Virus record (IMG/VR): IMGVR_UViG_3300043313_001220
Span: 30,375 to 94,374 of that record
From: a virus
DNA length: 64,000 nucleotides
Reading direction: 5' to 3' (one strand)
Shown here: positions 592 to 35,175 of the stretch, one piece after another
Layout: each line of letters begins with the position of its first letter
Numbering within the stretch: position 1 is the stretch's first letter
The notes under the pieces: model-generated
Database searches by the model: none
Seen by the model: the letters and a program-made list of their open reading frames with translations, nothing else
What the model was told of the DNA's origin: nothing
Made by a program: the position numbers and the translations under genes

Positions 592-620
592 AGCATATCC
601 CGTGGCACATGGGGTGTCAA
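592..620 (-). promoter_or_regulatory. Promoter for the leftmost gene
   Basis: On the minus strand there is a TTGACA -35 box, a 17-nt spacer and a TATGCT -10 box. The -35 lies in the context CACTGCTTGACACCCC, matching the TGMCAC-type element shared by most promoters in the window. It faces the gene starting at 548. Confidence 0.7.
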
Positions 621-2901: not shown

Positions 2902-3502
2902 GCTGACGCTCCCGCTTCCTTTTCGTGTGGCTTTTGATGTCGTCACGCCCACACGCTCGACAGACGCGGTGACCGCGATAGATCCTCGTGTTCGTCTCAT
3001 TCCAGGGGTGCCCCCTGGCGCAGTGCCCCTTGCGACGCCTGTTGCTAACTTGCACGCTGGCCGTAGCCCAGCGGCAGTTGTTGGGGCCATATCCGAGATC
3101 GTTGTTGATCCGGTCCAGCGACAGGTGGGGTGCGGGCCGCCGCCCCATGTCCACCAGGAAGGCCGAGAACCGCCCCCACCGGAGGCACACCGATATGCCG
3201 CGCCCCCCGTAGTTGTGGTAGTTCTTGTTCGTTGGGTTGGTACAGCGGTCCAGCATGGACCACCACGCGCGGTATTCGGGTGTTCCCCACATGCCGGCAC
3301 GCGAGCCACGTTCGATAGCCAGCTCGTCATGCAGACACCCGCACGATTGTGTCACCCCCCAGCTACGACACAGAAGTAGACGCTCGGCCCCACAGTCGCA
3401 TCGACACGCAATGCGGGGCTCATCGTTGTAGCGCGGTTTGGTCACCACCAAGCGACCAAACCGCACTCCCACCTCGTGAGTGACCACGACCCCTCGACTC
3501 AT
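2888..3502 (-). CDS. Free-standing HNH endonuclease
   Basis: A 204-residue protein with an N-terminal zinc-ribbon-like segment (CRCDCGAERLLLC, then SCGC) and a central homing-type HNH region: SLDRINNDLGYGPNNCRWAT followed by NRR. A second CARGHPWNETN and CRAC pair near the C-terminus looks like another zinc knuckle. This arrangement is typical of mobile homing endonucleases that lie between phage genes. The ATG overlaps the RDF stop (ATGA), and its 3' end overlaps the exonuclease start by 14 nt. Confidence 0.85.
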   Translation of the reverse strand: MSRGVVVTHEVGVRFGRLVVTKPRYNDEPRIACRCDCGAERLLLCRSWGVTQSCGCLHDELAIERGSRAGMWGTPEYRAWWSMLDRCTNPTNKNYHNYGGRGISVCLRWGRFSAFLVDMGRRPAPHLSLDRINNDLGYGPNNCRWATASVQVSNRRRKGHCARGHPWNETNTRIYRGHRVCRACGRDDIKSHTKRKRERQHELV

Positions 3503-4845
3503 CGCAGTTTGGCCGCCAATGCCTGCATCTGTGCGACGGTGGCCAGCTGCCGGTCGACCCTGAACTCTTCGTGCAGCATCCGGTCGATGTCGGCGGTTTT
3601 AAGCTTTTTCATCCCCGCCGCCCCAAGCAGCTGCATCATCGCATCCTTGCGCGCCTGTGGGTCGTCGGTGGCCGCGATCTGCTCCTCCGGCTCACCGTCC
3701 TCCCACGGCGCGCTGACCGCCGGCAGGGTCGTCGACGCCTCTGGAGTGGCCTCCGGGTCAGCGGGAGGGTCGAGCAGGGCCTCGGATTCCCCCGGGTCCT
3801 CCTGCCAAGCTTCCTGGACATCCAGGCGGGCGTCACGGGCCTTCTTCGTATCGATCCGGGCCTGCGCCCGCTGGGCCTCCGACTCCTGCGTGCGCTGGGC
3901 GGTCAGCACCTGCTGGCGGGCCTGCCAGGCGTCGATCAGCTGCTGGTGGTCGCCGGTCTCCTTGATCCTCTTGCGGATCCCAGCCATCTCCGCGTTGGTC
4001 GTGGCCTTCGCGATCGCCTCCAGCGCCTTCGGGATGTTGGGGGCGGGAGGCACGGGGGGCACGGGGGGCACGGGAGGCACGGGAGGCACGGTGGCCGGAG
4101 CCGCCTCGATTGCCGTGGCGCGGGAGGGTTCGATGGCCGCCCGCATGGCAGCAGCCTGCTGGTCGCGGCCAAGCTGCAACACGGTGCTGACCGCGTCTGA
4201 GCCGACCTGCACCGTTCGGGAGGTCACCCCGTCTAACAACAGGATCGGCACGTTGTAATCTTTGGTGACCACTTTTCTCTCTTTGCGGTCGTATTGGCGG
4301 GACTCGCGGTTCTCCAGCAACAAGCGGGCGGGCAACGGCATGCGGATGCCCGCGATCATGTCGAACAGCTGGACCATCTCGCCGGCCGCATAATACCCAT
4401 GGGTCTCAAGCCCCCACACACCCAGGCCCGGCACGTCGGCCAAAAGCAAATCGACCCGGGTGGTCGGCTTACATCTCCGAGTTTCCGGGTCGCAGTCACA
4501 AGTGTCCCCATAGATCTGGTCCTGAACGCCGTCACAGCGGCGGCTGCACACGCCACCCGACCACAGCTCGTATGTCGGGTCAACAATCTGGGGAGGGATG
4601 AAGACTGGAATCAGCGCCGCATCGGTCACCACCTGCCACTGCTTGCCCCGGGGGGCGTCCGCCCATACCTCCATCTCTCCACCGTAGAGCGCTGCCACCT
4701 CTTCCACGAGGTGCTGGGCCGCACTTGTAAAGCGCAGAGTATCCAACCGGCTGGGCCGTTCCTTGCCCGAGCTGGTCTTGACCTTGCGGCCCAGCCGGAT
4801 GCGGCCCACCCGTACTGAGCGGATCTGGAGGTCTCGAATGGCCAT
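3499..4845 (-). CDS. gp3-type recombination directionality factor with long C-terminal extension
   Basis: The first 240 residues match, by recall, the phiC31/phiBT1 gp3 family of recombination directionality factors: MAIRDLQIRSVRVGRIRLG at the start, LYGGEMEVWADAPRGKQW, LWSGGVCSRRCDG with clustered cysteines, CKPTTRVDLLLADVPGLGVW, and LETHGYYAA. Such proteins bind a serine integrase and switch it from integration to excision. I see no integrase in this window. After residue 250 a Val-Pro-Pro repeat linker leads into about 170 residues of charged, coiled-coil-like sequence not present in classical gp3. The start is fixed by a GGAG box eight bases upstream; it lies inside the preceding endonuclease VII-like frame. 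Confidence 0.75.
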   Translation of the reverse strand: MAIRDLQIRSVRVGRIRLGRKVKTSSGKERPSRLDTLRFTSAAQHLVEEVAALYGGEMEVWADAPRGKQWQVVTDAALIPVFIPPQIVDPTYELWSGGVCSRRCDGVQDQIYGDTCDCDPETRRCKPTTRVDLLLADVPGLGVWGLETHGYYAAGEMVQLFDMIAGIRMPLPARLLLENRESRQYDRKERKVVTKDYNVPILLLDGVTSRTVQVGSDAVSTVLQLGRDQQAAAMRAAIEPSRATAIEAAPATVPPVPPVPPVPPVPPAPNIPKALEAIAKATTNAEMAGIRKRIKETGDHQQLIDAWQARQQVLTAQRTQESEAQRAQARIDTKKARDARLDVQEAWQEDPGESEALLDPPADPEATPEASTTLPAVSAPWEDGEPEEQIAATDDPQARKDAMMQLLGAAGMKKLKTADIDRMLHEEFRVDRQLATVAQMQALAAKLR

Positions 4846-10802: not shown

Positions 10803-10909
10803 GGGGCGGTAGCGCAGCGTGGTAGCGCGGGAGGACGAAGGTGGGAGGCCGGTGCACCGGCACCCACTGGGGGGCCTTCAGGTCGCAGGTTCAAATCCTG
10901 CCCGCCCCC
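10803..10909 (+). tRNA. tRNA-like gene 1 with 33-nt anticodon-loop insertion
   Basis: Acceptor GGGGCGG (10803-10809) pairs perfectly with CCGCCCC (10902-10908). TA at positions 8-9, D stem GCGC/GCGC with loop AGCGTGGTA, variable loop AGGTC and T arm GCAGG-TTCAAAT-CCTGC are all canonical. The anticodon stem can be drawn as GGAGG (10830-10834) with CCTTC (10875-10879), but the loop is 40 nt instead of 7 and holds a hairpin (GTGGG...CCCAC enclosing CCGGTGCACCGG). No anticodon can be assigned. CCA is not encoded. It may be an intron-bearing, degenerate or repurposed tRNA. Confidence 0.6.
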
Positions 10910-11360: not shown

Positions 11361-11819
11361 ATGGCCACCTGTGTCAACGGACACGTTGACCCACCCCGTT
11401 ACAAGAACGCCACCTGCAAGCGGTGCGCAATAGAGAAAGCGGACGCCTACCGGAAAGCCAATCCAGAGAAAAAGCGAATCCGCGAGGCCAAAAGGGCCCG
11501 AATCAAGAGGCGAGAGGACCGACATGCCGCGCTGGCTGCCTATGGTGGTGTCTGTGCCTGCTGTGGGGAGCACCGAGAGCCGTTTCTGGTGCTCGACCAC
11601 ATCAACGGCGATGGCGCGGAACACCGCCGCATGATGCAACCCAATGCCGGACCCCATGCGCCTGCCGGCTATCGTACTTACCAGTGGCTACGCTTGCGTG
11701 GGTACCCACCCGGCCTGCAAGTGTTGTGCGCCAACTGCAACATGGCCAAAGAACGCGGCATCTGCCCGCACCAAGAAGGAAGTGAGACCCCCCGTGGGAT
11801 TGCTGCAAGTCATAGTTGA
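11361..11819 (+). CDS. HNH homing endonuclease (CPHQ subfamily)
   Basis: A 152-residue protein beginning MATCVNGHVDPPRYKNATCK, a zinc knuckle, followed by a basic linker and an HNH domain: CACCGEHREPFLVLDHINGDG, HRRMMQ, YQWLRLRGYPPGLQVLC, CNMAKERGICPHQ. Two more genes here (13870 and 28219) share the DH-N-DG and CPHQ signature, so they are paralogous mobile endonucleases. The gene ends 26 nt inside the purZ gene. Confidence 0.85.
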   Translation: MATCVNGHVDPPRYKNATCKRCAIEKADAYRKANPEKKRIREAKRARIKRREDRHAALAAYGGVCACCGEHREPFLVLDHINGDGAEHRRMMQPNAGPHAPAGYRTYQWLRLRGYPPGLQVLCANCNMAKERGICPHQEGSETPRGIAASHS

Positions 11820-12867
11820 TGGTCAATTCGGATCGTCCGGCAAGGGCGCTGTGGCGGCACACCTGGCACGCCAAGAGCACAAGAGCGGGCGACACGTCGC
11901 CGCTGTGCGGGTGGGGGGGCCAAATGCGGGTCACTCCGCCTGTGACGACAGCGGGGTCAAGTGGGCCCTGCGTCAAATTCCGGTGGCCGTGGTGGCGGAC
12001 CCGAACGCCCAGCTCTACATCGCCGCCGGGTCCGAGGTGGACCTGGAGGTGCTGTGTGACGAGGCTGAACGGCTCGAAGCCGCTGGTCACAAGGTCTACG
12101 ACCGCCTCGTCATCGACCGGATGGCGACCGTGCTGGAGCCCCGGCACCGTGAGCAGGAGGGCGCGTTCAACCTGAACGAGCGGATCGGCAGCACGGCCAA
12201 AGGCATCGGTGCAGCCCGGTCCGAACGAATCTGGCGGACCGCCCGGGTCGTCCGCGATTTGGCCGACGACATCGAAGACGACCGGATCACCTCGTTCGCC
12301 GTCGGGAGCGTCGCGGCAGCGCTCCGCAACCATCTCGCCCAGGGCGGGACGGCCCAAGTCGAGTGTTCGCAGGGCTTCGGCCTGAGCCTCTACCACGAGT
12401 TCTACCCCCAGGTCACCTCCAGCGACACCACCACGCTCGGGTTCCTCTCGATGGCCGGGGTCGCCCCCTGGGATAAGGCCGTGACCGACTTCGAGGTCTG
12501 GGTGACCCTGCGTCCGAATCCGATCAGAGTCGCCGGGGCCAGCGGCCCGCTGCTCGGGGAGACCACCTGGGAGGCCCTGGGGCTCGCCGAAGAGAAGACC
12601 ACGGTCACCCAGCGGGTGCGGCGGGTCGGCGTTTGGGACCCGCAGTTGGCCCGGGACGCGATCGCCGCCAACGGCGGGGCAGGATTCAATGACACCGTCC
12701 GGATCGCCCTGATGATGCTCGACTATGTGGACCCCTCGGTCGCCGGGGTCACCGAAGCCAGCGCGCTGACCGACAAGGCCATCGAGTTTATCCACATGGT
12801 CCAGAAAGACGCCGGGTCGTATGTCCGGCTGGCTGGGACGTCTGACCGCACGGCGATCGAACTGTGA
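11794..12867 (+). CDS. purZ: PurZ-like N6-succino-2-aminoadenylate synthase
   Basis: A 357-residue member of the adenylosuccinate synthetase superfamily. The P-loop region reads GQFGSSGKGAVAAHLA (residues 10-25): where PurA has a catalytic Asp (GDEGKG) this protein has Ser14, as in phage PurZ enzymes. PNAGH (43-47), IGSTAKGIG (about 131), SQGFGLSLYHEFYP (about 192) and IRVAGASG (about 245) also match the phage PurZ pattern. PurZ joins Asp to dGMP with ATP; PurB then releases fumarate to give 2-amino-dAMP, the precursor of the Z base. I chose the GTG at 11794 because it sits one strand before the P-loop and follows AAGGAAG. The upstream HNH gene overlaps by 26 nt. PurB is encoded at 21499. Confidence 0.85.
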   Translation: MGLLQVIVDGQFGSSGKGAVAAHLARQEHKSGRHVAAVRVGGPNAGHSACDDSGVKWALRQIPVAVVADPNAQLYIAAGSEVDLEVLCDEAERLEAAGHKVYDRLVIDRMATVLEPRHREQEGAFNLNERIGSTAKGIGAARSERIWRTARVVRDLADDIEDDRITSFAVGSVAAALRNHLAQGGTAQVECSQGFGLSLYHEFYPQVTSSDTTTLGFLSMAGVAPWDKAVTDFEVWVTLRPNPIRVAGASGPLLGETTWEALGLAEEKTTVTQRVRRVGVWDPQLARDAIAANGGAGFNDTVRIALMMLDYVDPSVAGVTEASALTDKAIEFIHMVQKDAGSYVRLAGTSDRTAIEL

Positions 12868-13019
12868 TGCAGGTCCCGACCCCCCCGTTGGACGCCCCCG
12901 CCCGTAGAAGGCGGGGGCTGGCCGTCGCCTGGGCGATGGTGATCGGCGTGTTCATGCTCGGTTTCTGCTGCGGCGGTGTCACCGTGATCGCCGCGCTCTC
13001 ATCCGCCCTGTCCGACTAG
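12867..13019 (+). CDS. Small single-pass membrane protein (50 aa)
   Basis: Start codon overlaps the purZ stop (TGATG). Sequence MQVPTPPLDAPARRRRGLAV, then a hydrophobic segment (AWAMVIGVFMLGFCCGGVTV). Basic residues before the membrane segment predict N-in topology. Unknown role. Confidence 0.6.
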   Translation: MQVPTPPLDAPARRRRGLAVAWAMVIGVFMLGFCCGGVTVIAALSSALSD

Positions 13020-13036
13020 CACAACCCGGAGGACCC

Positions 13037-13900
13037 ATGCCACAGAACCGCCCCCCGGTCGGGTACGGCCGAACAACAGCTGCCACCGACAAGCCGCAGC
13101 CGCACACCTCCGAGTACACGCTGTCCGAGGACGAAGCGGGGGGGGCGACCGACAGCCCCCCCGCGCTGCTGCTCCCCGGTACCTGGGTGAAAGCCCCCCG
13201 GGCCGCGGTGCTCGGGCTCGGGCATGGCCAGGGCGATAACCCGGCAGACGTTGACGAACAGGCCGGGGGGCGGGTTACACCACCCCCGGCCTCCACGCTG
13301 ACGAGCGAGGAGACGGCCAACCCGCGCGGGGCCCTCACCTCCCTGCGCAACCAGCCCCCCCCGGAGCCACCGGGAGAGGTCGAAGAGCCTGCACGGTGGA
13401 TCGCCCCCACCCATGTGCTCGGGATCAACGGGGAGCCGCTGCCGGAGGGCCTGCCGCCGCCGCCCCCGCCTCGACCGATAGACGCCCTGACCCAAGCGGT
13501 CGAGCAGCTGTTCGACATCCAGACCGAGAAAGAACTGGACCCGGAACCCGGGCACGGCGGCAGCGAAGAGTTGGCCGCGTGGTGGCATGGGGTGGCGGAC
13601 TCCGATCTGGAGATGCTGCTGCCGAAAGCCGTCGAGTACAGCGCCCATGACCTGCGGATGACGGGCCACATCATGGCGGACCTCATGGACATCAAAGTGG
13701 ACGACGCATTCGCCGCTGAACTCGCCTGCGCGGTGTACTTGATGTCTAAGGTAACGCGCATTCTGGGGGCATACAAGGACGGACGGCTCCCTGCCATAGA
13801 TTCGATAACGGACGCTCGGGTGTATGCTACAATGATGGCCAGAATTCGCGACAGGGGGGGCTGGCCCGGTTGGAACGATGCAAAAACGGACATGGGCTGA
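13037..13900 (+). CDS. Conserved actinophage protein of unknown function
   Basis: A 287-residue protein. The first 150 residues are Pro/Gly-rich and probably disordered. The C-terminal 110 residues are helical: HDLRMTGHIMADLMDIKVDD, AVYLMSKVTRILGAYKDGRL and DARVYATMMARIRDRGGWPG. That domain resembles a widespread actinophage hypothetical family seen near replication and nucleotide genes. The ribosome site GGAGGA precedes the ATG. Its 3' end overlaps the following HNH gene by 31 nt. Confidence 0.75.
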   Translation: MPQNRPPVGYGRTTAATDKPQPHTSEYTLSEDEAGGATDSPPALLLPGTWVKAPRAAVLGLGHGQGDNPADVDEQAGGRVTPPPASTLTSEETANPRGALTSLRNQPPPEPPGEVEEPARWIAPTHVLGINGEPLPEGLPPPPPPRPIDALTQAVEQLFDIQTEKELDPEPGHGGSEELAAWWHGVADSDLEMLLPKAVEYSAHDLRMTGHIMADLMDIKVDDAFAAELACAVYLMSKVTRILGAYKDGRLPAIDSITDARVYATMMARIRDRGGWPGWNDAKTDMG

Positions 13901-14505
13901 CGGCTGAGAACACCCGTGTCTATGAACGGAAGACGGGGCCTCGCGCGGGCAAGCTGGAGCGCCAGTGTGTCGACTGCCAGCGCGAGGCCCAGGGGAGGTA
14001 TCGGGACTCGGGCGGTCTCGCCGCCAAGACCCGCGCACGACGCAAGGAAGTCGATCGGTCTGTGCCACAACCCCTATGCGGCTGTGGCAACGGGCGGCGG
14101 ACACTGCCGTCCACCCGCAACGGCCCCGGTGCCACGGGCCGCTGCTCGGTCTGCCACCAAGCCATCGTACGCCGTTGGCAGAAGAACAACCCCGAGGCCC
14201 ACCGCGCTGGCCAACAGCGTCGCTATCGGGCACTCATGGACGGCTTCATCACCACATATGGGGGCAGCTGCGAATGCTGCGGTGAAGCCGAACGCCGATT
14301 CCTCACCCTCGACCACGTCAACAACGACGGGGGCGGGCGCGACCGCAACCAGACTCCCGGCCTGGGCACCAGTACGATCCTGCGCCGCCTGCGCCGGGAC
14401 GGGTGGCCGCGAGACCCGACATATGCCCTGGCCTGCTTCAACTGCAACTCAGGACGCCATCTAAACGGGGGCATCTGCCCCCACCAGGAGAGGAACACCG
14501 AATGA
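13870..14505 (+). CDS. HNH homing endonuclease (CPHQ subfamily)
   Basis: A 211-residue protein with two N-terminal zinc knuckles (CKNGHGLTAEN...CVDC; CGCGNG...CSVC) and a C-terminal HNH domain: CECCGEAERRFLTLDHVNND, CFNCNSGRHLNGGICPHQ. No ATG or GTG is available before the first cysteine, so a TTG start at 13870 is used, which is weak evidence. Paralogous to the genes at 11361 and 28219. Confidence 0.75.
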   Translation: MERCKNGHGLTAENTRVYERKTGPRAGKLERQCVDCQREAQGRYRDSGGLAAKTRARRKEVDRSVPQPLCGCGNGRRTLPSTRNGPGATGRCSVCHQAIVRRWQKNNPEAHRAGQQRRYRALMDGFITTYGGSCECCGEAERRFLTLDHVNNDGGGRDRNQTPGLGTSTILRRLRRDGWPRDPTYALACFNCNSGRHLNGGICPHQERNTE

Positions 14506-15551
14506 CGACCCCCAACGGACCAGTGGCCTATATGGCCGAGCCCATCGACTTCTCGTCAGGCCCCAGCACCGACGGCCACCGTGTCACCCAGGCCCTGCCC
14601 GACTACGGCGTAGCGGTCTACCGGCCCGCGACCGCCTGGCACGGTGGGATCTACGCCCCCGGCACCGTCGAGACCATCAACCGCGCCGCACTGCTGGCCG
14701 CCGACGTGGTCATCGCCAACCTCGCCACCGGCCTGGTCAGCTACGGGACCCCGATGGAGATCGAAGCAGCCACCGCCGCCGGCATCCAGGTGGTGGTCCT
14801 GTGGCCGCCCGCGACCGCCCAATCGGTCAGCCTGCGGGCCAACCCCCGGGTCGCGTTCGTCGCGACCGCCGACGAGGCGGTCGAGCTGGCCGCCGAACTG
14901 GCCCAGGCGCACTACGCCAAACGCGAGATCGAACGGGAGCAGAAGACCGCCGACATCCGCAGTCGGCTGGATGCGCAGCGCCAGCTGCGGTTCACGATGG
15001 CGCTCGGCCACGAGGCCCCCCGGCCCGCACTGGCCGACGACAGCGGCATGGACCTGGTCACCGCCGTGGACACCGTCATCCCGCCGCACACTTTTGTAGA
15101 CATACAGAGCACCGTTACGGGTATCCAGATCCCCGAGGGCATGTGGGCGCTGATCACCGGCAGGAGCTCGGCCATCCGCAAGCGTGGCCTGCTGGTCCCG
15201 AACGGGGTGATCGACCACGGGTGGCGCGGCCCGCTGATGGCCGGGGTCTACAACCTCGGGACCGAACCTGTGACCGTCCTGGCCGGGGAGCGGGTCGCCC
15301 AAGTGATCCTGATGCCGAACACCACCGAGCAGGTCGATATCGTCAAGGTCGAACGGCTCGACCCCCACGAGCGTGGAACACGCGGCTTCGGTTCGACAGG
15401 GACCGGCCTGGGCGGGGTGATCGGCACGATGACACTTTGCTCACCCGCGAACCCCGAGCTGCACGAGCCTTACCGCATCCAGACCGCCGAGCAAGAAGCC
15501 GCCGAGTACGCCCGGGTCGACGCGCTACAGCCGGTAAACCCGATCGGCTGA
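14502..15551 (+). CDS. Nucleoside deoxyribosyltransferase-like / dUTPase fusion
   Basis: A 349-residue two-domain protein. Residues 1-135 (VAYMAEPIDFSSGPSTDGHR, LLAADVVIANL, GTPMEIEAATAAGIQVVVLW) look like a nucleoside 2-deoxyribosyltransferase/SLOG-type Rossmann domain. Residues 160-305 form a trimeric dUTPase with motifs DDSGMDL (about 180), GRSSAIRK (about 220), GVIDHGWRG (about 238), ERVAQVILMP (about 264) and RGTRGFGSTG (about 293). The enzyme would remove dUTP and supply dUMP; the first domain may act on nucleosides or only bind nucleotides. ATG overlaps the HNH stop. It fits the nucleotide remodelling theme set by PurZ and PurB. Confidence 0.85.
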   Translation: MTTPNGPVAYMAEPIDFSSGPSTDGHRVTQALPDYGVAVYRPATAWHGGIYAPGTVETINRAALLAADVVIANLATGLVSYGTPMEIEAATAAGIQVVVLWPPATAQSVSLRANPRVAFVATADEAVELAAELAQAHYAKREIEREQKTADIRSRLDAQRQLRFTMALGHEAPRPALADDSGMDLVTAVDTVIPPHTFVDIQSTVTGIQIPEGMWALITGRSSAIRKRGLLVPNGVIDHGWRGPLMAGVYNLGTEPVTVLAGERVAQVILMPNTTEQVDIVKVERLDPHERGTRGFGSTGTGLGGVIGTMTLCSPANPELHEPYRIQTAEQEAAEYARVDALQPVNPIG

Positions 15552-15561
15552 GACACGACGC

Positions 15562-15599
15562 GGGCCCGGGACGTCTGAGCGGCTAGACGACCCGGGCCC
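15562..15599 (+). terminator. Hairpin after the dUTPase gene
   Basis: GGGCCCGGG pairs with CCCGGGCCC, with an inner CGTCT/AGACG extension. There is no T tract, as is common for actinobacterial terminators. A second perfect hairpin (CCAGCACATGCC / GGCATGTGCTGG, 15684-15717) follows about 85 nt later. Confidence 0.5.
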
Positions 15600-15683
15600 A
15601 CGTACAGCCACGACCCCCCGGAGGTGGATTGCCCCCATGCTACCACCCCCGGCGACAGGCGACAAGCCAGACAACTGAAACCG

Positions 15684-15717
15684 CCAGCACATGCCGCAAC
15701 CGGTGGGCATGTGCTGG
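15684..15717 (+). repeat. 12-bp perfect inverted repeat
   Basis: CCAGCACATGCC and GGCATGTGCTGG flank a 10-nt loop, in the 335-nt gap before the primase-polymerase gene. It could be a terminator, an RNA processing site or a protein-binding site. Confidence 0.5.
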
Positions 15718-15752
15718 ACCATACCCCGACACGCCCGGGGCGACCGTCGGCC

Positions 15753-15781
15753 TTGCGCCGGGCCGCCCCCGGCAGTACCAT
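15753..15781 (+). promoter_or_regulatory. Weak promoter candidate before the primase-polymerase
   Basis: TTGCGC, 17-nt spacer, TACCAT. Only partial agreement with consensus and no TGMCAC repeat upstream, so this is tentative. Confidence 0.3.
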
Positions 15782-15812
15782 GCAGGCCCCCGCAGCACGC
15801 ACCGCAGTACCG

Positions 15813-15887
15813 ATGAGCGAGGTCGATATGAGCCCACCCCCCGGTAGCATGTCCACAACAGACACCAGGCCGGGGGGTGCCCACTGA
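15813..15887 (+). CDS. Possible 24-aa leader peptide coupled to the primase-polymerase
   Basis: MSEVDMSPPPGSMSTTDTRP and four more residues; its TGA overlaps the ATG of the large gene (TGATG). The same frame is open further upstream to 15624, but that part looks non-coding. It may serve only to couple translation. Confidence 0.3.
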   Translation: MSEVDMSPPPGSMSTTDTRPGGAH

Positions 15888-18358
15888 TGGCCGCCCCCGT
15901 GCCCGCACCGGCCATCGGAGGATACGGCGAGTGGGCGTGGCAGTACCGCGAGCAAGGGTGGGTCAGTGTCCTGCCGCTGCCACACCGCAAGAAGACCCCC
16001 CCGCCGAAGGACTACACCGGTCAGGTGATCCGGAAGACCGGCCTCGCCCCGCACATCCCCGACGACACCCAGATCGCCGAATGGGTGACCGAATACCGCC
16101 GCGGCAACCTCTGCCTGCGGATGCCCGGCGATGTGATCGGGATCGACGTCGACGCCTACGAATATCAGTACCACGTCAAAGGCGACGACAAACAGCTGCT
16201 GTACGACGACCAAGGCGACCCGGTGATGGCCTGGGGGTTGAAGACCGGCGACATCACCATTGCGGAGATGGAGGACCAGCTCGGGGAGCTGCCGGCCACC
16301 TGGCGGTCATCCAGCCGCACTGAAGGCGTCTCAGGTATCCGGCTGTACCGGGTCCCGGCATCGATGTCGTGGCATGACGTCGGTGAACATGTCGAGACCA
16401 TTTGGTGGGGCCACCGATACGCGGCAGTCTGGCCATCAATCAACCCGGACAGCGACGCCCGGTACCTGTGGCTGGATGAGAACGACCTCGACTCCGGATG
16501 GGGGCCGTGGATACCGAAGGTCACCGACCTGCCGGAGCTGCCCGAGGCCTGGGTACGCCACCTGTCGCAGGAGACGGTCGTCAAATCGGCGCTGGTCGGG
16601 CCGCCCCGGCAGGAACATGCCGACCGGCCCCGGTTCCTCGGCAGCCACGACCCGTCGAAGCCACGACAGTTCACCCGCCGGCAGGCAGCCGACTTCGTGC
16701 AGCCACACCTGGACGAACTGCGGCACGCCGGGGTCGGGACGATCAACAACCGGCTGAACGACGCCGCGAAGGTCATCAGCCACTTCGTCCCGGCGGTCTG
16801 GCCGGATGTCCAGGCGCGCATCCTGCTGATGGATGCGTTGAACGCCACCGCCTACGACGGCAAGAGCTGGAAAGCCGACCGGACGATCGAATCGGCATTC
16901 GACAGCACCCTCGGCGACTGGCGGGCGCAGCTGGTGCGGGAGCCCGCCCACACCATCCCGCGCGCGGCCTCCGTGGCCATCCCGGAGCCCCCGGACGGCG
17001 ACCCGGGAGGTGGGGAGGCCACAGCGGGGTTCTGGGACGCCCACCCGGTCCTCGCGTACGTCAACGAGTACGCCATATCCTATGGGCGCAACCCGTGGGC
17101 GCTGCTCGGGGTGGTAATCGCACGGGCGATCACAGCCACCGAACCGAACATCCAACTGCCGCCGATCGGCGGAACCCCCGGCAGCCTGAACTGCTTCATC
17201 GCCCTGGTCGGCAAGTCTGGTGGAGGCAAGAGCGTCACCGCGAAGCTCGGACGGCGGTTCCTGGACGCGCGCTACGGCAACCATCCGCTGGAGACGTTTG
17301 AAGCACCACTCGGATCCGGCGAGGGCCTCGCCCACATCTACATGAAGCCCCCACCGGCACGACGCCCCAAAAGCAAGGGGGTGGACGAAGACTCAGCCGC
17401 GATCGGCCTCGGCCTGGACGGGCTCGACCCGGACCGCCCGATCCAATACCGCACCAGGGCGTTGATCAAAGCGCTGGAGATCGACGCGCTAGACTCGATC
17501 AGTGACCGCCGTGGGTCCACGCTGTCCGCGCAGTTGCGGACCGCCTGGGACGCCGACGAGCTGGGATTCTTCTATTCCGGCCACGAGAAACGACTGCCCA
17601 CCCCCGAACACGGCTACCGGATGTCGATGCTGCTGGGTGTCCAACCCGGCCGCGCCGGCACGCTACTGGACGAGGTCGACGGAGGTCTGCCACAGCGGTT
17701 CCTGTGGGTCCCCTGTGAGAACCCCGACCTGCCGGAATTCCAAGACGGCGACGAAGACGCCCCGCTGCCCGACCTGCCGTCGCTTCTGTGGACCCCCCCG
17801 GCCTACCAGGGGGTAGCGATGGTCGGACAGGACCGGGTGGTCCGCCGGGACGTCCGCCGCAACGATCGGAAGCTCTCCCGGGGCGAGGGCGACGCCCTAG
17901 ACGGCCACACGATGCTCAACCGACTGAAGGCGGCTGCGGGCCTGGCCTTCCTATTGGGGGGTTCTGCCCAGCAGCAGATGGAGATCACAGCGGAGATTTG
18001 GGAGCTGTCCGGGGTGCTGATGGCGGTGTCGGATCGCACCCGAGATGGGGTGTTGCGCCACCTGGCTGAAGCCGCCCGGGTTGCTAATGAGAAGAAGGGC
18101 TATGCGGCTGCCAAGCAGGCGATCGCCACCGAGGAGGTCATGGAAGACACGGGGATCAAGAAGGCGTTGCGGTGGTTGCGGGGCAAGATCGGGGACGAAT
18201 GGGTGACCCAGAGCTGGCTGGTCGAGCAGGCCAAGAGCACCATCTCGAAATACGTGAAGTCAGCGCTCAATCAGATGTTGGAAAACGGAGAGATCGACGC
18301 GGAGAGTTATAAGGCGGGGGGTCATGAGACACGGAAAGTGAGGCGTCGAGAGGGGTAG
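15887..18358 (+). CDS. Primase-polymerase / helicase-like replication protein
   Basis: An 823-residue protein. The N-terminal 250 residues form a bifunctional primase/polymerase (archaeo-eukaryotic primase) domain: MPGDVIGIDVDAYEY near residue 84 carries the catalytic acidic pair, and EGVSGIRLYRVP near residue 148 is the third conserved segment. The C-terminal half is an ATPase with P-loop VGKSGGGKSVTAKLG near residue 442 and the DUF3987-like segment LDALDSISDRRGSTLSAQLR. Such proteins open the origin, prime and unwind. The gene lies directly upstream of iterons and an AT-rich block (18364-18621), which supports an initiator role. No separate family A or B DNA polymerase occurs in the window. 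Confidence 0.8.
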   Translation: MAAPVPAPAIGGYGEWAWQYREQGWVSVLPLPHRKKTPPPKDYTGQVIRKTGLAPHIPDDTQIAEWVTEYRRGNLCLRMPGDVIGIDVDAYEYQYHVKGDDKQLLYDDQGDPVMAWGLKTGDITIAEMEDQLGELPATWRSSSRTEGVSGIRLYRVPASMSWHDVGEHVETIWWGHRYAAVWPSINPDSDARYLWLDENDLDSGWGPWIPKVTDLPELPEAWVRHLSQETVVKSALVGPPRQEHADRPRFLGSHDPSKPRQFTRRQAADFVQPHLDELRHAGVGTINNRLNDAAKVISHFVPAVWPDVQARILLMDALNATAYDGKSWKADRTIESAFDSTLGDWRAQLVREPAHTIPRAASVAIPEPPDGDPGGGEATAGFWDAHPVLAYVNEYAISYGRNPWALLGVVIARAITATEPNIQLPPIGGTPGSLNCFIALVGKSGGGKSVTAKLGRRFLDARYGNHPLETFEAPLGSGEGLAHIYMKPPPARRPKSKGVDEDSAAIGLGLDGLDPDRPIQYRTRALIKALEIDALDSISDRRGSTLSAQLRTAWDADELGFFYSGHEKRLPTPEHGYRMSMLLGVQPGRAGTLLDEVDGGLPQRFLWVPCENPDLPEFQDGDEDAPLPDLPSLLWTPPAYQGVAMVGQDRVVRRDVRRNDRKLSRGEGDALDGHTMLNRLKAAAGLAFLLGGSAQQQMEITAEIWELSGVLMAVSDRTRDGVLRHLAEAARVANEKKGYAAAKQAIATEEVMEDTGIKKALRWLRGKIGDEWVTQSWLVEQAKSTISKYVKSALNQMLENGEIDAESYKAGGHETRKVRRREG

Positions 18359-18431
18359 AGAGCACTCCGGGACTCCGGGACTCCGGGACCACCCGGGGGG
18401 CTGTCTGAGAACGCTGGTCCCGGAGTCAGCT

Positions 18432-18470
18432 CACACATGGCGTGACACAATCCGTGTCACGCCATGTGTG
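18432..18470. repeat. 17-bp perfect inverted repeat in the candidate origin
   Basis: CACACATGGCGTGACAC and GTGTCACGCCATGTGTG are separated by AATCC. The inner TGACAC/GTGTCA half-sites equal those found at the promoters, so the same regulator could bind here. Confidence 0.7.
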
Positions 18471-18487
18471 GTATGGCCTCTTACCCC

Positions 18488-18523
18488 GTAAAATAGATAA
18501 AAATAAATATTTATTGCTTTTCG
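18488..18523. other. AT-rich DNA-unwinding candidate
   Basis: A 36-bp block of almost only A and T with ATAAAAATAAATATTTATTG at its core, in a genome that is otherwise strongly GC-rich. Flanked by the iteron clusters. Confidence 0.65.
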
Positions 18524-18651
18524 TCGTAACGCGACCACCCTGTGCAGAACACCCCCTGGCGGTCCCGGAGTCCCGGAGTCCCGGAGTCAGGCCATCGAGG
18601 GTCCCGGAGTGGTCCCGGAGTCGCAATTACGGAGAGTGACCGACACGCGAG

Positions 18652-18680
18652 TTGCCACGCTGGAAAGGCCGCTGTAGGGT
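18652..18680 (+). promoter_or_regulatory. Promoter downstream of the origin
   Basis: TTGCCA, 17-nt spacer, TAGGGT, preceded by CGACAC 12 bp before the TGCCAC element. The GTG at 18688 follows after seven nucleotides. Confidence 0.7.
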
Positions 18681-18687
18681 GGACGGC

Positions 18688-18915
18688 GTGACGACACCGA
18701 GCAAGACCACATGGGACACCGTCGAGTTCCGTCTGAACAGAGCCGCCAAGCTGATGTCCGAAGTGGACAGCCTGTTCCAACTCGGATTCGACACCACCGA
18801 GGAGGATGCCGCCAACCAGATTGCCCTTACCCAGCTGCTGGTCGCGGCGGCTAACGCCCACCTCCGGATCGCCGAGATGGAGATGACCGGCCACGCCTTC
18901 CGCCGCCACCAATGA
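18688..18915 (+). CDS. Small hypothetical protein, leaderless GTG start
   Basis: A 75-residue helical, acidic protein: VTTPSKTTWDTVEFRLNRAA and EEDAANQIALTQLLVAAANA. It starts with a GTG seven nucleotides from the -10 box, so translation probably begins at the 5' end of the mRNA. Unknown function; position beside the origin suggests a replication accessory role. Confidence 0.65.
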   Translation: MTTPSKTTWDTVEFRLNRAAKLMSEVDSLFQLGFDTTEEDAANQIALTQLLVAAANAHLRIAEMEMTGHAFRRHQ

Positions 18916-20195
18916 CCACCACCATCCCCCGGGTCAAGCTCGCCCGGACCTACGCCGAGCTGCCGGCCTACCAGCCCGGTCACTGGCTCGTGGCCGGGAC
19001 TCCCGGATGGCTGCCGTACCCCTGCACCTGCTGGTACGACAATTGCAGCTACCCGAAGTGCCCGGACCGGGGGCGGCCGGAGGGAGACGCCCTGCCACCG
19101 GGATGCTGCGGGAGACGCCCTGTCGTGGCCGGGGAGCGCGCAGAAGCCCCCGCCCGGGGTTCGAATACCCGCAAGGGCCGTTCGTCAACGTGGAAGGCCA
19201 CGGAGAGCCCCAGGCGCAGCACCCGCCCGGCGGATCTGCCACAGCGAGCGGTGGGTGGTTCGTCCTCGGTGGCCGGGGATCTGTGGGCGGCCCCGTGGGA
19301 TGCCGAGCCCGCCCCGTGGGATCTGGACGAGCCGGATCCCGGCCTGGGTGGCCCCGACGACCGGTCTCCCGTGGCCACGGAGACACCGAAGCCGGCTCCC
19401 GGGCATTCGAATGGGGATGCGGCCTCTCGTCAACATTCCGAGCCAAGCGACGGACTTTACCCGCACGGCGAACGTCAACGATCGCAGGTCGAACACTGTG
19501 CCTGTGTCACACCCTGGGACCCGCCGCCGCCGGTCCTCTTGGTGGCCGACGCCAAGACGGGTCCGGTCCGGGCCGCGATCGCCCTCGACCTGCGCGGCCC
19601 GGCCGGTGACCAGCCACGGCAGGACCCCCGCGACCTCGCCGAGAAGCTCCTGGCGGAGCGCGGCTACGGCCTGAAAGGCGGCTGGAAGGACGGGCGGCAC
19701 ACGCTGCTGCTGCCGGAGGGCAAGCTCAAGACCCGTCCTGGTTTCCTGGCCGAAGCATTCAACACCGCCTCCGGCCTGCGAGAGAGCGCTCTCGCGGTGA
19801 TCGACACACCGCCGGAGCAGGCCGGGGGGGTTCATTGTCCGGACTGCCACAAGGACTGGCAGAGCGCGGGTGCCTACGGGATGCACCGCAGGAAGGGCAA
19901 CGGGATTGATTGGCCTCGATGGGCCGAGCGCTGTGTGGACCCCGCGACGATCCGGGTCGTCCCCCGAAGTGCTGGCGCTAGCGCCAGCATATCACGCCGA
20001 TCAAGCCCCGGGCAATATGATGGAGCACCACTGTTGAAGCGCGGACCGAACGGCGTCTGGCATCTGGACCCGCTCGCCCCGTGGGGTCCCGGAGGCCCGC
20101 CGTTCAGCCCCGGGAAGGCGATGGAGATCTATGAACGGGGGCGGCGGGAGCTGAAACGTTGGCATTTCGGGAAGGGCCACAACCGCGAGCGCTGA
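18912..20195 (+). CDS. Hypothetical protein with C-terminal zinc-finger-like motif
   Basis: A 427-residue protein; ATG overlaps the upstream stop. Residues 30-60 contain CTCWYDNCSYPKC, and near residue 308 there is CPDCHKDWQSAGAYGMH, a C2H2-like finger. The middle (residues 65-200) is low-complexity Pro/Gly/Arg and probably disordered. A short segment around residue 230 (DLAEKLLAERGYGLKGGWKD) looks folded. No known family. The gene contains a 20-bp perfect palindrome at 19970-19989. Confidence 0.6.
   Translation: MTTTIPRVKLARTYAELPAYQPGHWLVAGTPGWLPYPCTCWYDNCSYPKCPDRGRPEGDALPPGCCGRRPVVAGERAEAPARGSNTRKGRSSTWKATESPRRSTRPADLPQRAVGGSSSVAGDLWAAPWDAEPAPWDLDEPDPGLGGPDDRSPVATETPKPAPGHSNGDAASRQHSEPSDGLYPHGERQRSQVEHCACVTPWDPPPPVLLVADAKTGPVRAAIALDLRGPAGDQPRQDPRDLAEKLLAERGYGLKGGWKDGRHTLLLPEGKLKTRPGFLAEAFNTASGLRESALAVIDTPPEQAGGVHCPDCHKDWQSAGAYGMHRRKGNGIDWPRWAERCVDPATIRVVPRSAGASASISRRSSPGQYDGAPLLKRGPNGVWHLDPLAPWGPGGPPFSPGKAMEIYERGRRELKRWHFGKGHNRER
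19970..19989. repeat. 20-bp perfect palindrome inside a coding region
   Basis: TGCTGGCGCTAGCGCCAGCA, perfectly symmetric, within the 18912-20195 gene. It could be a protein-binding site or simply reflect codon choice. Confidence 0.5.
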
Positions 20196-20203
20196 CACGC
20201 CGC

Positions 20204-20232
20204 TTGCCACGCCCGGTGGCGTGTGGCAGGAT
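20204..20232 (+). promoter_or_regulatory. Promoter reading into the long non-coding interval
   Basis: TTGCCA, 17-nt spacer, CAGGAT, with TGACAC 12 bp upstream of TGCCAC. It lies right after the 18912-20195 gene and would produce an RNA with a leader of about 1.26 kb before purB. Confidence 0.65.
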
Positions 20233-20239
20233 AGGGGGA

Positions 20240-21482
20240 CAAACCAGGCCAGTGCGCCTCCCGACTAGCCAGTTCGTACCACACGACAAGCCTGCCCCCC
20301 TCGCATCCGCTGCACACCGACAAGTCGTGCCGCCGCAAGCCCAGCCCACCCCCCGCTCGCCGACACATCTAGCCGTACCACACGACAAGCCTGCCCAGTG
20401 CAATGCCGCCCAGCCTTGACGACACCCCAGACCGACATATGCCCGACTGTTCACATCCACCCTACCGCCGTCCGACACCGCACGCCACACCCTCGCGCTC
20501 CGTACGACCAACCTCTCCGAATCTTGCCGACGCGCACGACATGCCGCTCTCGACACCGCCCGACCCGCACCGACACAGCACGCCGGTCCGACCCAACCGA
20601 CACGCCCGGCCACCGCAGGACTCACGACAGATCTGCCCAGCGCTCACCCATGCGACTACCCGTCCCACAGCTGGTCGGCCCCTACCCCGACACCCGACAT
20701 GGCCCATCTGTCCCAGCCGCCCGACATGCCATCCCAGCCGAGTCCTCCCCGACACTCCACCCTCAGCCGCAACGCCCCGAGACGACAGATCTGTTCCGCC
20801 CACCCCATGTGACTACCCTGCCCGGCCCTGCTCCAATATCGACTACCCGACGCAACCCCAGAGCCCCCGCTGACATATCCAGCCCGCCCGCCCCAGGCGA
20901 CCAGCCACCCCAGCTCCTGTGTCGACAACCCGATCGGCGTCACGCCAGACCCAACCCGACGACAGCCCAGACCCGCACTGTCTTACCCCGTGCTCGGACC
21001 GCCCATCCCACCCGACAAGCCCACCCGGGCCGGTACAACCCCAGCCGTGCCCCACCCCCCGACTACCCTACACACCCCAGTGCGGATCCGACACGCCATC
21101 TCATCGCACCGCCGCCGACTACCCCGGCCCTTCGTGCCCTGTCTCCGACGACCCGTGCCATCCGACAAGCCCAGCCGCGCCGATGCAACCCCACTGCGAC
21201 CATCCATCCCGCGTCATTGCGGGCCCGACACGCCATCCCTGGCATCCCCGACCCGGTACCGACAAGCCCAGCCGCCGCGCTTCATATCGACAAGCCGACC
21301 CACGCCACCCCGTGTCCTCTCCCGGCCCGTCCGACAGTGCGTCCCCACGCCGCCCAGTGGCTTCCCCACCCATCCCCCATGGCACGCCCGATCAAAGCGG
21401 CGTACTGACGAGCCCGTCCCCACCCGGCCCCCCGACAAGCCGAGCGAACTCCAACCCAGCCCCTACGACAACCCGCTGGACC
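20240..21482 (+). repeat. 1.2-kb non-coding region with dozens of CGAC-type short repeats
   Basis: The plus strand is extremely C-rich and G-poor. CGACAAGCC occurs seven times (near 20284, 20383, 21013, 21162, 21260, 21288, 21432), with variants CGACATGCC, CGACACGCC (three), CGACAGATCTG (two) and CGACTACCC (four), usually 15-40 nt apart. The long open frames here (up to 336 codons, several frames at once) are Pro/Arg/Thr low-complexity and lack ribosome sites, so I treat them as artefacts of the skewed composition. The transcript would be unstructured and C-rich, like a Rho-loading region. It separates two genes transcribed in the same direction. Confidence 0.6.
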
Positions 21483-21498
21483 GATAGGGAAGAGAGAT

Positions 21499-22965
21499 AT
21501 GGACAGGCGATACGAGAGTGCCGATGTCACAGCGATCTGGAGCGACCAGGGCCGCAACCTGGTCGAACGCAGCATCTGGGTCGAGGTGATGCGAGCCCAG
21601 CGCGAAGCCGGAATCGACATCCCGGAAGACCAGATCGACGCGTACGCCGACCTGGCAGCCAGCCAGGCACTGCTGGACCCGGACCACGAGGAAGCCCTGC
21701 TCGAAACGCAGGACATCGCCGAGCTGGAGAGAGAGACCAAACATGACCTGTACGCCCGACTGCGGTGGTTCAACGAGAGTGTCGGAGGCGACCACGCCCA
21801 CCGCGGGTTGACCTCGGCCGACATCACCGAGAACACCCAGCAGATCCAGATCGTCGCCTCCGCCGAACTGCTGCTAGAACACGCTGAGCAGGTCCTGCGC
21901 CGGATGTACGAGCGTGCCGGGGTGTTCGCCACGGTGCCGATCGTCGCCCGCACCCATGGCCGACCCGCGCAGCTGACCACCATTGGCAAGCGGATCACCG
22001 ACTGGATGCAGGAGCTGATGGGGGCGATGGTCACTCTCCAGGGGGCCATCGAAGGTTACGTGCCGCGGGGGATCAAAGGCGCGGTCGGCACCAGTGCCGA
22101 CATGGCGCGGACGTTGCTGTCCGGCCTGCCGGAGGGCAGCCCCGCCAGCAGGTGGGTGGCCGCCCGCCTGGCCGCCGGCACGCTGGACGACCGGGTGTCG
22201 TCCAAGCTGGCAGGCGAGACCACATCGATGCTGTCGACCGGGCAGTGTTACCCACGCTCGGCCGACCTGCCGATCATCTCCGCGACGTTGCAGCTCGCCG
22301 CCGCGTGCGGCACGGTCGCCACTGCCGTGCGGCTGATGTCCGCGCTCGGCCTGGCGGTCGAGAACCCCGACGCGCATGTCGGGTCGTCGGCCATGCCCCA
22401 CAAGAGCAACCCGCGCTACAGCGAGCGGGTCTGCAGCCTCCAGGTGGTCGCACGCGGGTATGCGGGAATGTTGCAGGAGACCGCCGGCACGCAGTGGCTG
22501 GAAGGTGACGTGTCGACCTCTGCGGCCCGCCGGATCGCCCTGCCGGGGCTATTCCACACGGTGGATTCGATGCTGGCCAACACCGCCTGGGTGTTGGACC
22601 ATCTGGTGTTCGACCTGGAGGCGATCAAGGACGAGCGCGACCTGTGGATGCCGGAGATGGCATCCGGCGCGCTGTTGGCCGCACTGGTCGAGAACGGGGT
22701 GCCACGTCAGAAGGCACACGAGGTACTGCGGCACCATTATCGGCAGATCGGCGGCCCGGACTGCGAGAGCGACCGATCGGGGACGCTGATCTACCACCTG
22801 ACCAGTGAAGACGCAGAGTTCCGGCTGACTGCGGAGCAGACCCAGGCCGCGTTCGACCCGGAGATGTTGGTTGGTTCTGCGGTGGCGATCGTGGAGGCTG
22901 TGGTCGGTGCGGAGCTCGGCGAGCTGCTGGATGCCGACCCGGAATGGCCTGGCGACCTGGTGTGA
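21499..22965 (+). CDS. purB: Adenylosuccinate lyase
   Basis: A 488-residue member of the fumarase/aspartase superfamily. The signature loop GSSAMPHKSNPRYSE (about residues 295-309) contains the catalytic Ser, and RTHGRPAQLTTIG (about 151) contains the general-acid His; HRGLTSADITENTQQ (about 98) is the third conserved region. The enzyme removes fumarate from adenylosuccinate or its 2-amino-deoxy form, the second step after PurZ. Z-genome phages mostly rely on host PurB, so a phage copy is notable. Ribosome site AGGGAAGAGAG precedes the ATG. It follows the long CGAC-repeat leader. Confidence 0.92.
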   Translation: MDRRYESADVTAIWSDQGRNLVERSIWVEVMRAQREAGIDIPEDQIDAYADLAASQALLDPDHEEALLETQDIAELERETKHDLYARLRWFNESVGGDHAHRGLTSADITENTQQIQIVASAELLLEHAEQVLRRMYERAGVFATVPIVARTHGRPAQLTTIGKRITDWMQELMGAMVTLQGAIEGYVPRGIKGAVGTSADMARTLLSGLPEGSPASRWVAARLAAGTLDDRVSSKLAGETTSMLSTGQCYPRSADLPIISATLQLAAACGTVATAVRLMSALGLAVENPDAHVGSSAMPHKSNPRYSERVCSLQVVARGYAGMLQETAGTQWLEGDVSTSAARRIALPGLFHTVDSMLANTAWVLDHLVFDLEAIKDERDLWMPEMASGALLAALVENGVPRQKAHEVLRHHYRQIGGPDCESDRSGTLIYHLTSEDAEFRLTAEQTQAAFDPEMLVGSAVAIVEAVVGAELGELLDADPEWPGDLV

Positions 22966-26431: not shown

Positions 26432-26827
26432 ATGCAACCCCAGATGAAGAAGCCGATGTACAGCGGTTTCGGCCAACGCAATAACACCACGGAGGCGCTC
26501 AAGATCGACCGGGCGTTGAAGGCGCAAGCCGAACACGACACCGAGAAGCTGCGCAAGCAGCGGCCCCAGGCGCTGCCGATGGCTCCCGGTCAGCGGGCAC
26601 TGACCTACATCGGCCGTCGGGCCACCCCGGCGCAGCGCCGCCGGGTTGAGAAGAAGAGTTATCGCTGGGCCCGGGGGGGACCGTGGCACAATCTTGGTTT
26701 GGACGTGTCAACTGCGCCCGACGGGCTGGAAGACCGGCCCGAGCTGCCCGAGTGGGACCCGACGGAGTGCAGTTGCCACATCAACCCACCGTGCCATTAC
26801 TGCACGAGCCAGGAGTTCAACCTGTGA
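26432..26827 (+). CDS. Hypothetical protein with C-terminal cysteine cluster
   Basis: A 131-residue basic protein beginning MQPQMKKPMYSGFGQRNNTT, with a charged helical middle and CSCHINPPCHYC near the end, a probable zinc site. Ribosome site ACAGGAGA lies before the ATG. It follows a 112-nt gap in which I see no convincing promoter. Confidence 0.65.
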   Translation: MQPQMKKPMYSGFGQRNNTTEALKIDRALKAQAEHDTEKLRKQRPQALPMAPGQRALTYIGRRATPAQRRRVEKKSYRWARGGPWHNLGLDVSTAPDGLEDRPELPEWDPTECSCHINPPCHYCTSQEFNL

Positions 26828-27525
26828 CCCGCCAACAGCAGATCGAGCAGATGCTCGGCATCGAGACCCACCTGGATGTCGCCGCGAGCTGGGCGACGTT
26901 CGACACCGACGAGTACTACCTCAAGGTGCAGGGGGTGCACACATGGAAGCTCAAGGACGACCTCAACCGGTACGCCCTGGTGATCGAGAGGACGCGCCCG
27001 GATCTGATCATCGAGGTCGGGACGAAATGGGGCGGTTCGGCGTTGTGGTTCGCCGACTTCGGCATCGACGTGGTCACGGTCGATATCGATCAGAGCCTCA
27101 CCGGCCCCGCACATGGTTTCGACGTTGACCGCGAACAGCCCCACATCCAGTTCGTTGAGGGGGACTCGGTCAACCTGGACACGCTGGCCCGGGTGTCCTC
27201 CCTTGCCAGCGGCTACGAGCGGGTCATGGTGTCGCTGGACGGCGAACACGCCGCACCCCACGTCTACCACGAGATCCTGGCCTACGGGCCGATGGTCAGC
27301 CAGGGCTGTTACCTGGTGGTCGAGGACGGGATCTTCGACCTGGTAGACCCGAGTGTCGCCCACCGCGGCGGGGCGCGCATCCCGACCGAAGGCGGCCCGC
27401 TTGCGGCCATCCGCCAGGCCGGGCTGCACACCGACCCGCGCTGGGTGCGGGACGTCGAGGTCGAACGGCTGACGCTGCGCAGTTACCATCCGGCGGGTTT
27501 CTGGCGCAGGGCCGAGGTCGACTGA
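26824..27525 (+). CDS. CmcI-like SAM-dependent methyltransferase
   Basis: A 233-residue protein of the cephalosporin hydroxylase/rhamnosyl O-methyltransferase family. LIIEVGTKWGGSALWFADFG (about residue 60) is the SAM-binding loop, VVTVDID the following strand, and VMVSLDGEHAAPHVYHEILA plus GCYLVVEDGIFD the metal- and substrate-site region. Family members methylate sugar or small-molecule hydroxyls. Glycosyltransferases are encoded at 34273, 36044 and 36928, so a sugar is a reasonable substrate. GTG start overlaps the upstream stop. Confidence 0.75.
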   Translation: MTRQQQIEQMLGIETHLDVAASWATFDTDEYYLKVQGVHTWKLKDDLNRYALVIERTRPDLIIEVGTKWGGSALWFADFGIDVVTVDIDQSLTGPAHGFDVDREQPHIQFVEGDSVNLDTLARVSSLASGYERVMVSLDGEHAAPHVYHEILAYGPMVSQGCYLVVEDGIFDLVDPSVAHRGGARIPTEGGPLAAIRQAGLHTDPRWVRDVEVERLTLRSYHPAGFWRRAEVD

Positions 27526-34082: not shown

Positions 34083-34276
34083 TGGGCCGACCCGCGCGGA
34101 TCAGTATCGGGATCAAGATCGGCCACCGGATGTACGAGGATGTGCTTACCGTGTCGGTCGGGTTTGACGGCGTGGCGACCAACGAGAACATCGCGGATGG
34201 TCTGGAGATGCTCGCCAAGGCAATCCGCGAGCAGATGGCGACAATGAAAGCGCCGAGAGAGGGGGCTGCCCCATGA
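34082..34276 (+). CDS. Small hypothetical protein
   Basis: A 64-residue protein starting MGRPARISIGIKIGHRMYED; TGATG-coupled. C-terminal helix EMLAKAIREQMATMK. Unknown. Confidence 0.55.
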   Translation: MGRPARISIGIKIGHRMYEDVLTVSVGFDGVATNENIADGLEMLAKAIREQMATMKAPREGAAP

Positions 34277-35172: not shown

Positions 35173-35175
35173 ACC

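Follow-up and report, generated by a model that had tools for sequence, protein, structure and literature searches.

A predicted 2-aminoadenine genome with a PurZ0-type gene module and a primase-polymerase as its only recognisable polymerase in an essentially complete actinobacteriophage

The systems closest to the locus described here, a predicted 2-aminoadenine (Z) module in the window that we analysed (64,000 bases, positions 30375-94374 of the 94,374-base IMG/VR virus record IMGVR_UViG_3300043313_001220), are those of cyanophage S-2L and of the phages encoding the PurZ0 form of succino-2-amino-deoxyadenylate synthase. S-2L excludes adenine (A) by removing dATP, and full replacement is reached with an unselective primase-polymerase (PrimPol) that accepts both A and Z (PMC8065100). 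PMC12884076 ties the published PurZ0 phages to the polymerase DpoZ-1, with PolA sequences following the PurZ0/PurZ split; the conversion of succino-2-amino-deoxyadenylate (dSMP) is assigned to host enzymes both there and in PMC8342488. A fusion protein of Arthrobacter phage Wayne (ALY10777) was shown to combine DmtZ with DutZ: dATP and dGTP are cleaved by the part with the dUTPase fold, and the part resembling nucleoside deoxyribosyltransferase (NDT) releases adenine from dAMP and transfers the sugar phosphate to Z (PMC12884076). DUF5664 is described as a dATP/dGTP hydrolase in the same source. The window encodes the following genes of this kind:

11794-12867, plus strand: purZ, PurZ0 clade, succino-2-amino-deoxyadenylate synthase, GTG start (NF038379, phrog_1211, 7VF6, tree)
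13037-13900, plus strand: ORFX, unnamed module member (locus order, phage-record scan, AlphaFold, Foldseek BFVD)
14502-15551, plus strand: dmtZ-dutZ fusion (PF00692, PF05014, Wayne ALY10777)
15887-18358, plus strand: PrimPol with a DUF3987 ATPase region (PF09250, E 2e-13; PF13148; phrog_11515, E 1e-71)
21499-22965, plus strand: purB, 488 amino acids, a cellular-type (actinobacterial) adenylosuccinate lyase (PF00206, PF10397, TIGR00928)

The Z genome that an earlier note had predicted from purZ and purB is likely on the sequence evidence, and well supported, because a PurZ of the PurZ0 clade, the DmtZ-DutZ fusion, ORFX and PurB stand together in one module; the fusion and ORFX had been overlooked in that note. 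We consider it probable that Z DNA is made by this PurZ0-type module, and that, as in S-2L, control of the nucleotide pool keeps A out, the PurZ0 tools replacing DatZ and MazZ. The two novelties put forward earlier, the phage-borne PurB and the PrimPol setting, were mostly known already, from annotated phages and from S-2L (PMC8065100). As regards the second, the idea of a different replication setting for Z DNA is weakened by S-2L, a published PrimPol system without DpoZ; what stands, and is new as far as searched, is a closed PurZ0 genome in which the PrimPol is the sole DNA polymerase that can be recognised. The absence of DpoZ from an essentially closed PurZ0 genome and the constancy of ORFX are the more interesting points of this locus.

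The Gordonia and Streptomyces phages Ghobes, Archimedes, Galactica and Hiyaa share with this genome PurZ0, ORFX, a dUTPase-fold DutZ with DmtZ, PurB and a primase-polymerase, and in Galactica, as here, DmtZ and DutZ are fused; they differ in their DNA polymerase I (DpoZ-1) and RecA, neither detected here, and in a different, divergent type of PurB. Wayne and its relatives resemble this genome in PurZ0, in a fused DmtZ-DutZ (35-39% identical) and in an HNH gene beside PurZ, but have DUF5664 instead of ORFX, no PurB, and DpoZ-1. S-2L is, like this genome, GC-rich and devoid of PolA, with a primase-polymerase as its sole phage polymerase (PMC8065100), whereas its PurZ belongs to the other clade, DatZ and MazZ stand in for DmtZ-DutZ and ORFX, and PurB is missing; none of the S-2L Z genes other than PurZ had a match in this genome. 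The IMG/VR contigs L027 and L060 (73-81 kb) also lack PolA, encode a cellular-type PurB and keep the gene order PurZ-ORFX-DmtZ-DutZ-...-PurB; unlike here, an AAA_25 protein takes the place of a PF09250 primase-polymerase, and their PurZ is about 50% identical. Measured against the traits of the PurZ0 phage group, this genome has a PurZ of the PurZ0 clade and a DutZ, often fused to DmtZ in that group and fused here, and shows no match for the DpoZ-1 family A polymerase; the S-2L-type pair, DatZ and MazZ beside PurZ, was not found.

The product of the 11794 gene is a true PurZ, as previously suggested, with predicted use of dGMP. It passes the curated model NF038379 (amino_Aden_PurZ; 325 bits, cut-off 300, E 3.6e-97) and stays far under the PurA equivalog models (150 bits versus a cut-off of 396, and 112 versus 402), so that TIGR00184 and PRK01117, the best PurA-specific ones, were missed by more than 200 bits. 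PHROG 1211, ‘2-aminooxy adenylosuccinate synthetase’, matches with E 9e-81, and the best PDB match, 7VF6 (E 4e-81; an entry labelled PurA-like), is the PurZ0 of Gordonia phage Archimedes (PMC12884076). The P-loop reads GQFGSSGKG, Ser14 occupying the position of the catalytic Asp13 of PurA, and the PurZ-specific Thr of the aspartate loop is Thr269 here (Thr273 in S-2L); Ser at the Asp13 position and Thr273 are among the residues listed as unique to PurZ (PMC8342488). Most remaining residues of the dGMP pocket are conserved. In trees that took in 50 IMG/VR relatives and isolates, the protein lies inside the PurZ0 group, whose 35 rows split from S-2L and SH-Ab at 100/100. The protein has no close kin (best IMG/VR identity, 52%). 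A second Ser follows the catalytic one here (GSSGKG), where the other PurZ0 examined with the P-loop covered have Glu, except L090 (Cys). PurZ and PurB might instead raise ordinary adenine nucleotide synthesis, as a PurA-PurB duplication, and leave the DNA normal: the PurB is of the cellular type, and PurB alone would serve AMP synthesis too. We regard this as very improbable, in view of the Ser in place of the catalytic Asp, the wide miss of both PurA-specific models, and neighbouring genes that encode Z-module enzymes.

The first gene missing from the earlier description, the 14502-15551 fusion, has a predicted N-terminal DmtZ part (an NDT-like deoxyribosyl-phosphate hydrolase/transferase) and a predicted C-terminal DutZ part (a dUTPase-fold dATP/dGTP diphosphatase). 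Its product matches PF00692 (E 2.5e-24) and aligns lengthwise with the Wayne fusion (35% identity, E 1.5e-48). All five Ghobes DmtZ residues checked are conserved: Y6, D12, P57, N77 and E103 correspond to Y10, D16, P42, N60 and E86 here.

The second, ORFX, has a low-complexity N-terminus of about 155 residues followed by a conserved four-helix domain of about 120, and these C-terminal residues match unnamed PurZ neighbours (Galactica gp66, Archimedes gp51, Ghobes gp51). Of the PurZ loci, 62 came with 2.5 kb or more of downstream sequence; ORFX follows PurZ within 2.5 kb in 52 of these and is replaced by DUF5664 in eight (the Arthrobacter group); both together were found in none of the 62, and the two loci with neither, S-2L and SH-Ab 15497, are both non-PurZ0. 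All non-Arthrobacter PurZ0 loci examined carry ORFX. It was found in 31 of 50,697 phage records, PurZ0 phages only: Microbacterium (18), Gordonia (6), Streptomyces (5), Micrococcus (1) and Curtobacterium (1). The counts of the first three hosts equal the PurZ match counts exactly, and in the Micrococcus and Curtobacterium records PurZ lies directly upstream; a collection scan with one ORFX member gave two loci only. ORFX is a constant, uncharacterised member of the PurZ0 module, and a search of the main text of PMC12884076 under several names gave no match for it.

The invariant residues of the ORFX domain are K, Y, K, R, D, D and Y, and its AlphaFold model has four helices (mean predicted local distance difference test, pLDDT, 87). 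In Foldseek BFVD, the first matches outside the ORFX family, at E about 0.05, were DUF6378 proteins (E 0.045) and phage proteins associated with nucleotide modification; the DUF6378 profile matched two of 38 family members weakly (E 0.045), and the PDB fold search gave no significant match. Invariant residues and model suggest an all-alpha nucleoside triphosphate (NTP) pyrophosphohydrolase, a tentative candidate for the MazG-like/DUF6378 superfamily that we propose to act on deoxynucleoside triphosphates (dNTPs), and the best functional hint is that ORFX sits where the dATP/dGTP hydrolase DUF5664 does. If this proposal is true, ORFX is a concrete enzyme candidate that is probably missing from any attempted rebuilding of the PurZ0 pathway.

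The PrimPol reported earlier is borne out by its PF09250 match, and none of the matches behind PurZ, PurB and this PrimPol is of a strength that chance would give. Its nearest relatives are in Gordonia and Mycobacterium phages, and a search of IMG/VR returned no close relative. Motif I is DVD, keeping DxD, the motif-II His is replaced by Arg and the motif-III Asp by Glu; the same motif-II and motif-III replacements occur in the homologues of Gordonia phage Reyja and Mycobacterium phage Dylan. PurZ matches were found in no Mycobacterium phage and in six Gordonia phages, Reyja not among them; since the nearest relatives come from phages with no PurZ match, this PrimPol is not Z-specialised. Given the motif-II and motif-III replacements, its role as replicase is uncertain. 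In the intergenic region that follows the gene (window 18364-18620), an 8-bp unit (ACTCCGGG / CCCGGAGT) recurs in inverted arrays around a perfect 17-bp palindrome with a 5-nucleotide loop (18432-18470).

Profiles for family A, B and C polymerases and RecA (PF00476, PF00136, PF07733, PF00154), all of which matched their controls, detected none in the 94-kb contig, and tblastn with five phage PolA proteins gave no match in the genome. DatZ and MazZ had no tblastn match in the genome and no HD_3 or MazG profile match; neither these two nor DpoZ, which the earlier note had left to be sought in the rest of the genome, was found. Wayne DUF5664 had no tblastn match in the genome, and its profile, a weak test since the control matched nowhere, also gave none. 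Every PurZ0 isolate inspected has either DNA polymerase I or a gene annotated as a DNA polymerase, and PolA is absent from 22 of the 50 IMG/VR PurZ records. With records of at least 30 kb, a single clade of PolA-less PurZ0 rows was rejected (approximately unbiased test, p-AU 8e-5) and parsimony gave six changes of PolA state, S-2L included. Four PolA-less PurZ0 records (L045, L073, L085, L089) measure 40-45 kb, full-genome size; closure evidence among the PolA-less PurZ0 records exists for this genome only. One PurZ0 lineage, represented by the contigs L070 and L074 (33-34 kb), has PrimPol with PolA and PurB undetected; these contigs may be fragments.

With PurZ, PurB and DmtZ-DutZ active and no Z-selective polymerase, the genome could also be a mixture of A and Z. 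This would agree with the lack of PolA anywhere in the contig, with the tolerance of the S-2L PrimPol for A and Z (PMC8065100), and with a PrimPol that here comes from a family of PurZ-free phages; however, S-2L replaces A fully with such an unselective enzyme through dATP removal (PMC8065100), and the Wayne fusion converts dATP to adenine (PMC12884076). Partial replacement is therefore unlikely in our judgement, and what most likely enforces Z is the depletion of dATP and not the selectivity of a polymerase.

IMG/VR classes the record as linear; the last 76 and the first 70 bases of the contig (window 63925-64000; L003:1-70) are the same 21-bp tandem repeat, which encodes PAVPVSA heptads, and in the same frame, at either end of the contig. 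The repeat lies between the major head protein gene and the tail genes of the contig's left end:

60896-62743 of the window: major head protein (phrog_777)
13370-16012 of the contig: tape measure, one of the left-end tail genes

Because both ends fall within one repeat, the genome is essentially complete; in the simplest reading its map is circular and was opened by the assembler inside the repeat. The shared frame and the position between head and tail genes indicate that probably repeat units alone are missing. The contig might nevertheless be chimeric or lack a piece, the real virus encoding DpoZ-1 like other PurZ0 phages, since the record is classed as linear and metagenome assemblies can lose regions. 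The in-frame repeat shared by both ends and the recurrence of PolA-less PurZ0 records make this distinctly unlikely. Across 73% of its length, the major head protein shares 54% identity with the counterpart in Actinoplanes phage phiAsp2. The virion genes put the virus among the actinobacteriophages, and the host is probably a GC-rich actinobacterium (GC of the record, 67%).

In the pathway that we propose, the DutZ domain, and by extension ORFX, would convert dGTP and dATP to dGMP and dAMP; PurZ would join dGMP and aspartate to dSMP, the phage PurB would convert dSMP to dZMP, and host kinases would raise dZMP to dZTP. The DmtZ domain would either destroy dAMP or hand the sugar-phosphate of dAMP on to free Z. 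Once dATP is gone, an unselective polymerase would use dZTP, following the logic of S-2L (PMC8065100), and put Z opposite T; host Pol III, with the phage PrimPol laying its primers, is a likelier candidate for this step than the PrimPol itself.

Several points weigh against this reading. The PF05014 match of the fusion (E 2e-4) is below the cut-off, and sequence cannot tell the substrate preference of DutZ. The Ser found in place of Glu after the catalytic Ser may give PurZ different kinetics, and the replaced motif-II His and motif-III Asp may restrict PrimPol to priming, with host Pol III doing the copying. The other PolA-less IMG/VR contigs may be fragments, and the searches may have overlooked a polymerase that selects for Z but belongs to an unrecognised family. 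The sequence shows the gene identities, the key residues, the gene order, a near-complete genome and no detectable PolA, PolB, Pol III alpha or RecA; the enzyme activities, the polymerase used and Z in virion DNA are inferred. A broader proposal is roughly an even call that leans slightly against: several PurZ0 lineages would replace A by Z through dNTP-pool control without a Z-selective polymerase, and ORFX would be an undescribed family of dNTP pyrophosphohydrolases, obligatory and interchangeable with DUF5664. If true, Z genomes of the PurZ0 branch would be independent of the Z-selective polymerase that published phylogeny ties to them, pool control would be the mechanism in general, with DpoZ as a dispensable addition.

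The phage-borne PurB that the earlier note placed at 21499 is full length, with Lyase_1 (PF00206) and the ADSL C-terminal domain (PF10397) and an intact signature (GSSAMPHKSNP); its match to TIGR00928 (E 3.4e-87, 293 bits) is under the equivalog cut-off of 326. The closest solved structure is the adenylosuccinate lyase 4nle (over residues 3-482), which we take to be a mycobacterial enzyme. PurB groups with the M. smegmatis ADSL (41%) and the L027/L060 PurB, and the Galactica, Ghobes and marine types fall apart from this group, on long branches that call for caution. This separate grouping suggests that Z phages recruited PurB more than once, the one here seeming to be a cellular type recruited separately; if true, a cellular source is included among these recruitments. 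A GTDB scan for its kin, picked by short peptide patterns, gave weak matches only and revealed no donor, and a search of IMG/VR gave no close relative. A phage PurB is not unusual, contrary to the earlier note: it is already annotated beside PurZ in eight Gordonia and Streptomyces phages (Galactica, Hiyaa, Keanu, Spocter, Ghobes, Archimedes, Sapo, Frizzle), and a PF00206 lyase occurs in 28 of the 50 IMG/VR PurZ records. PurB was present in 17/22 PolA-less versus 11/28 remaining records; a tie between PurB presence and PolA absence was dropped, as it fails once relatedness is corrected for.

Just upstream of purB there is a 1.25-kb non-coding stretch (window 20210-21480) in which C is abundant and G scarce (GC skew, about -0.42). 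This stretch holds 13 CCGACAAGCC-like matches, every one on the plus strand, out of 26 in the whole window, where 8.2 would be expected. It is a candidate origin or primase-recognition region.

Two HNH open reading frames (ORFs) flank purZ and ORFX:

11361-11819, plus strand: small HNH endonuclease-like ORF, approximate start, overlapping the start of purZ
13870-14505, plus strand: HNH endonuclease (phrog_2255, E 5e-11)

The translation of the former shows an HNH-type CxxC...HINGDG...C.NCN pattern. The latter is probably a homing-type insertion within the Z module, and phage Wayne has a similar HNH immediately before PurZ.

Elsewhere in the window, a DNA N6/N4 methyltransferase with a TSPPY motif (617-1480, minus strand; PF01555, E 2e-30) would, in the putative Z genome, have cytosine N4 or N6 of Z as its target. 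A Gp3-like recombination directionality factor (3499-4845, minus strand; PF18897, E 2e-35) hints at temperate ancestry. A tRNA at 10803-10909 was matched by Rfam (46 bits) with no ARAGORN call. Other genes include a CmcI-like methyltransferase (26824-27525) and a cluster at 34273-36931 that comprises a Methyltransf_24 protein and two glycosyltransferase entries, one of group 1 and one a weak match to family 2.

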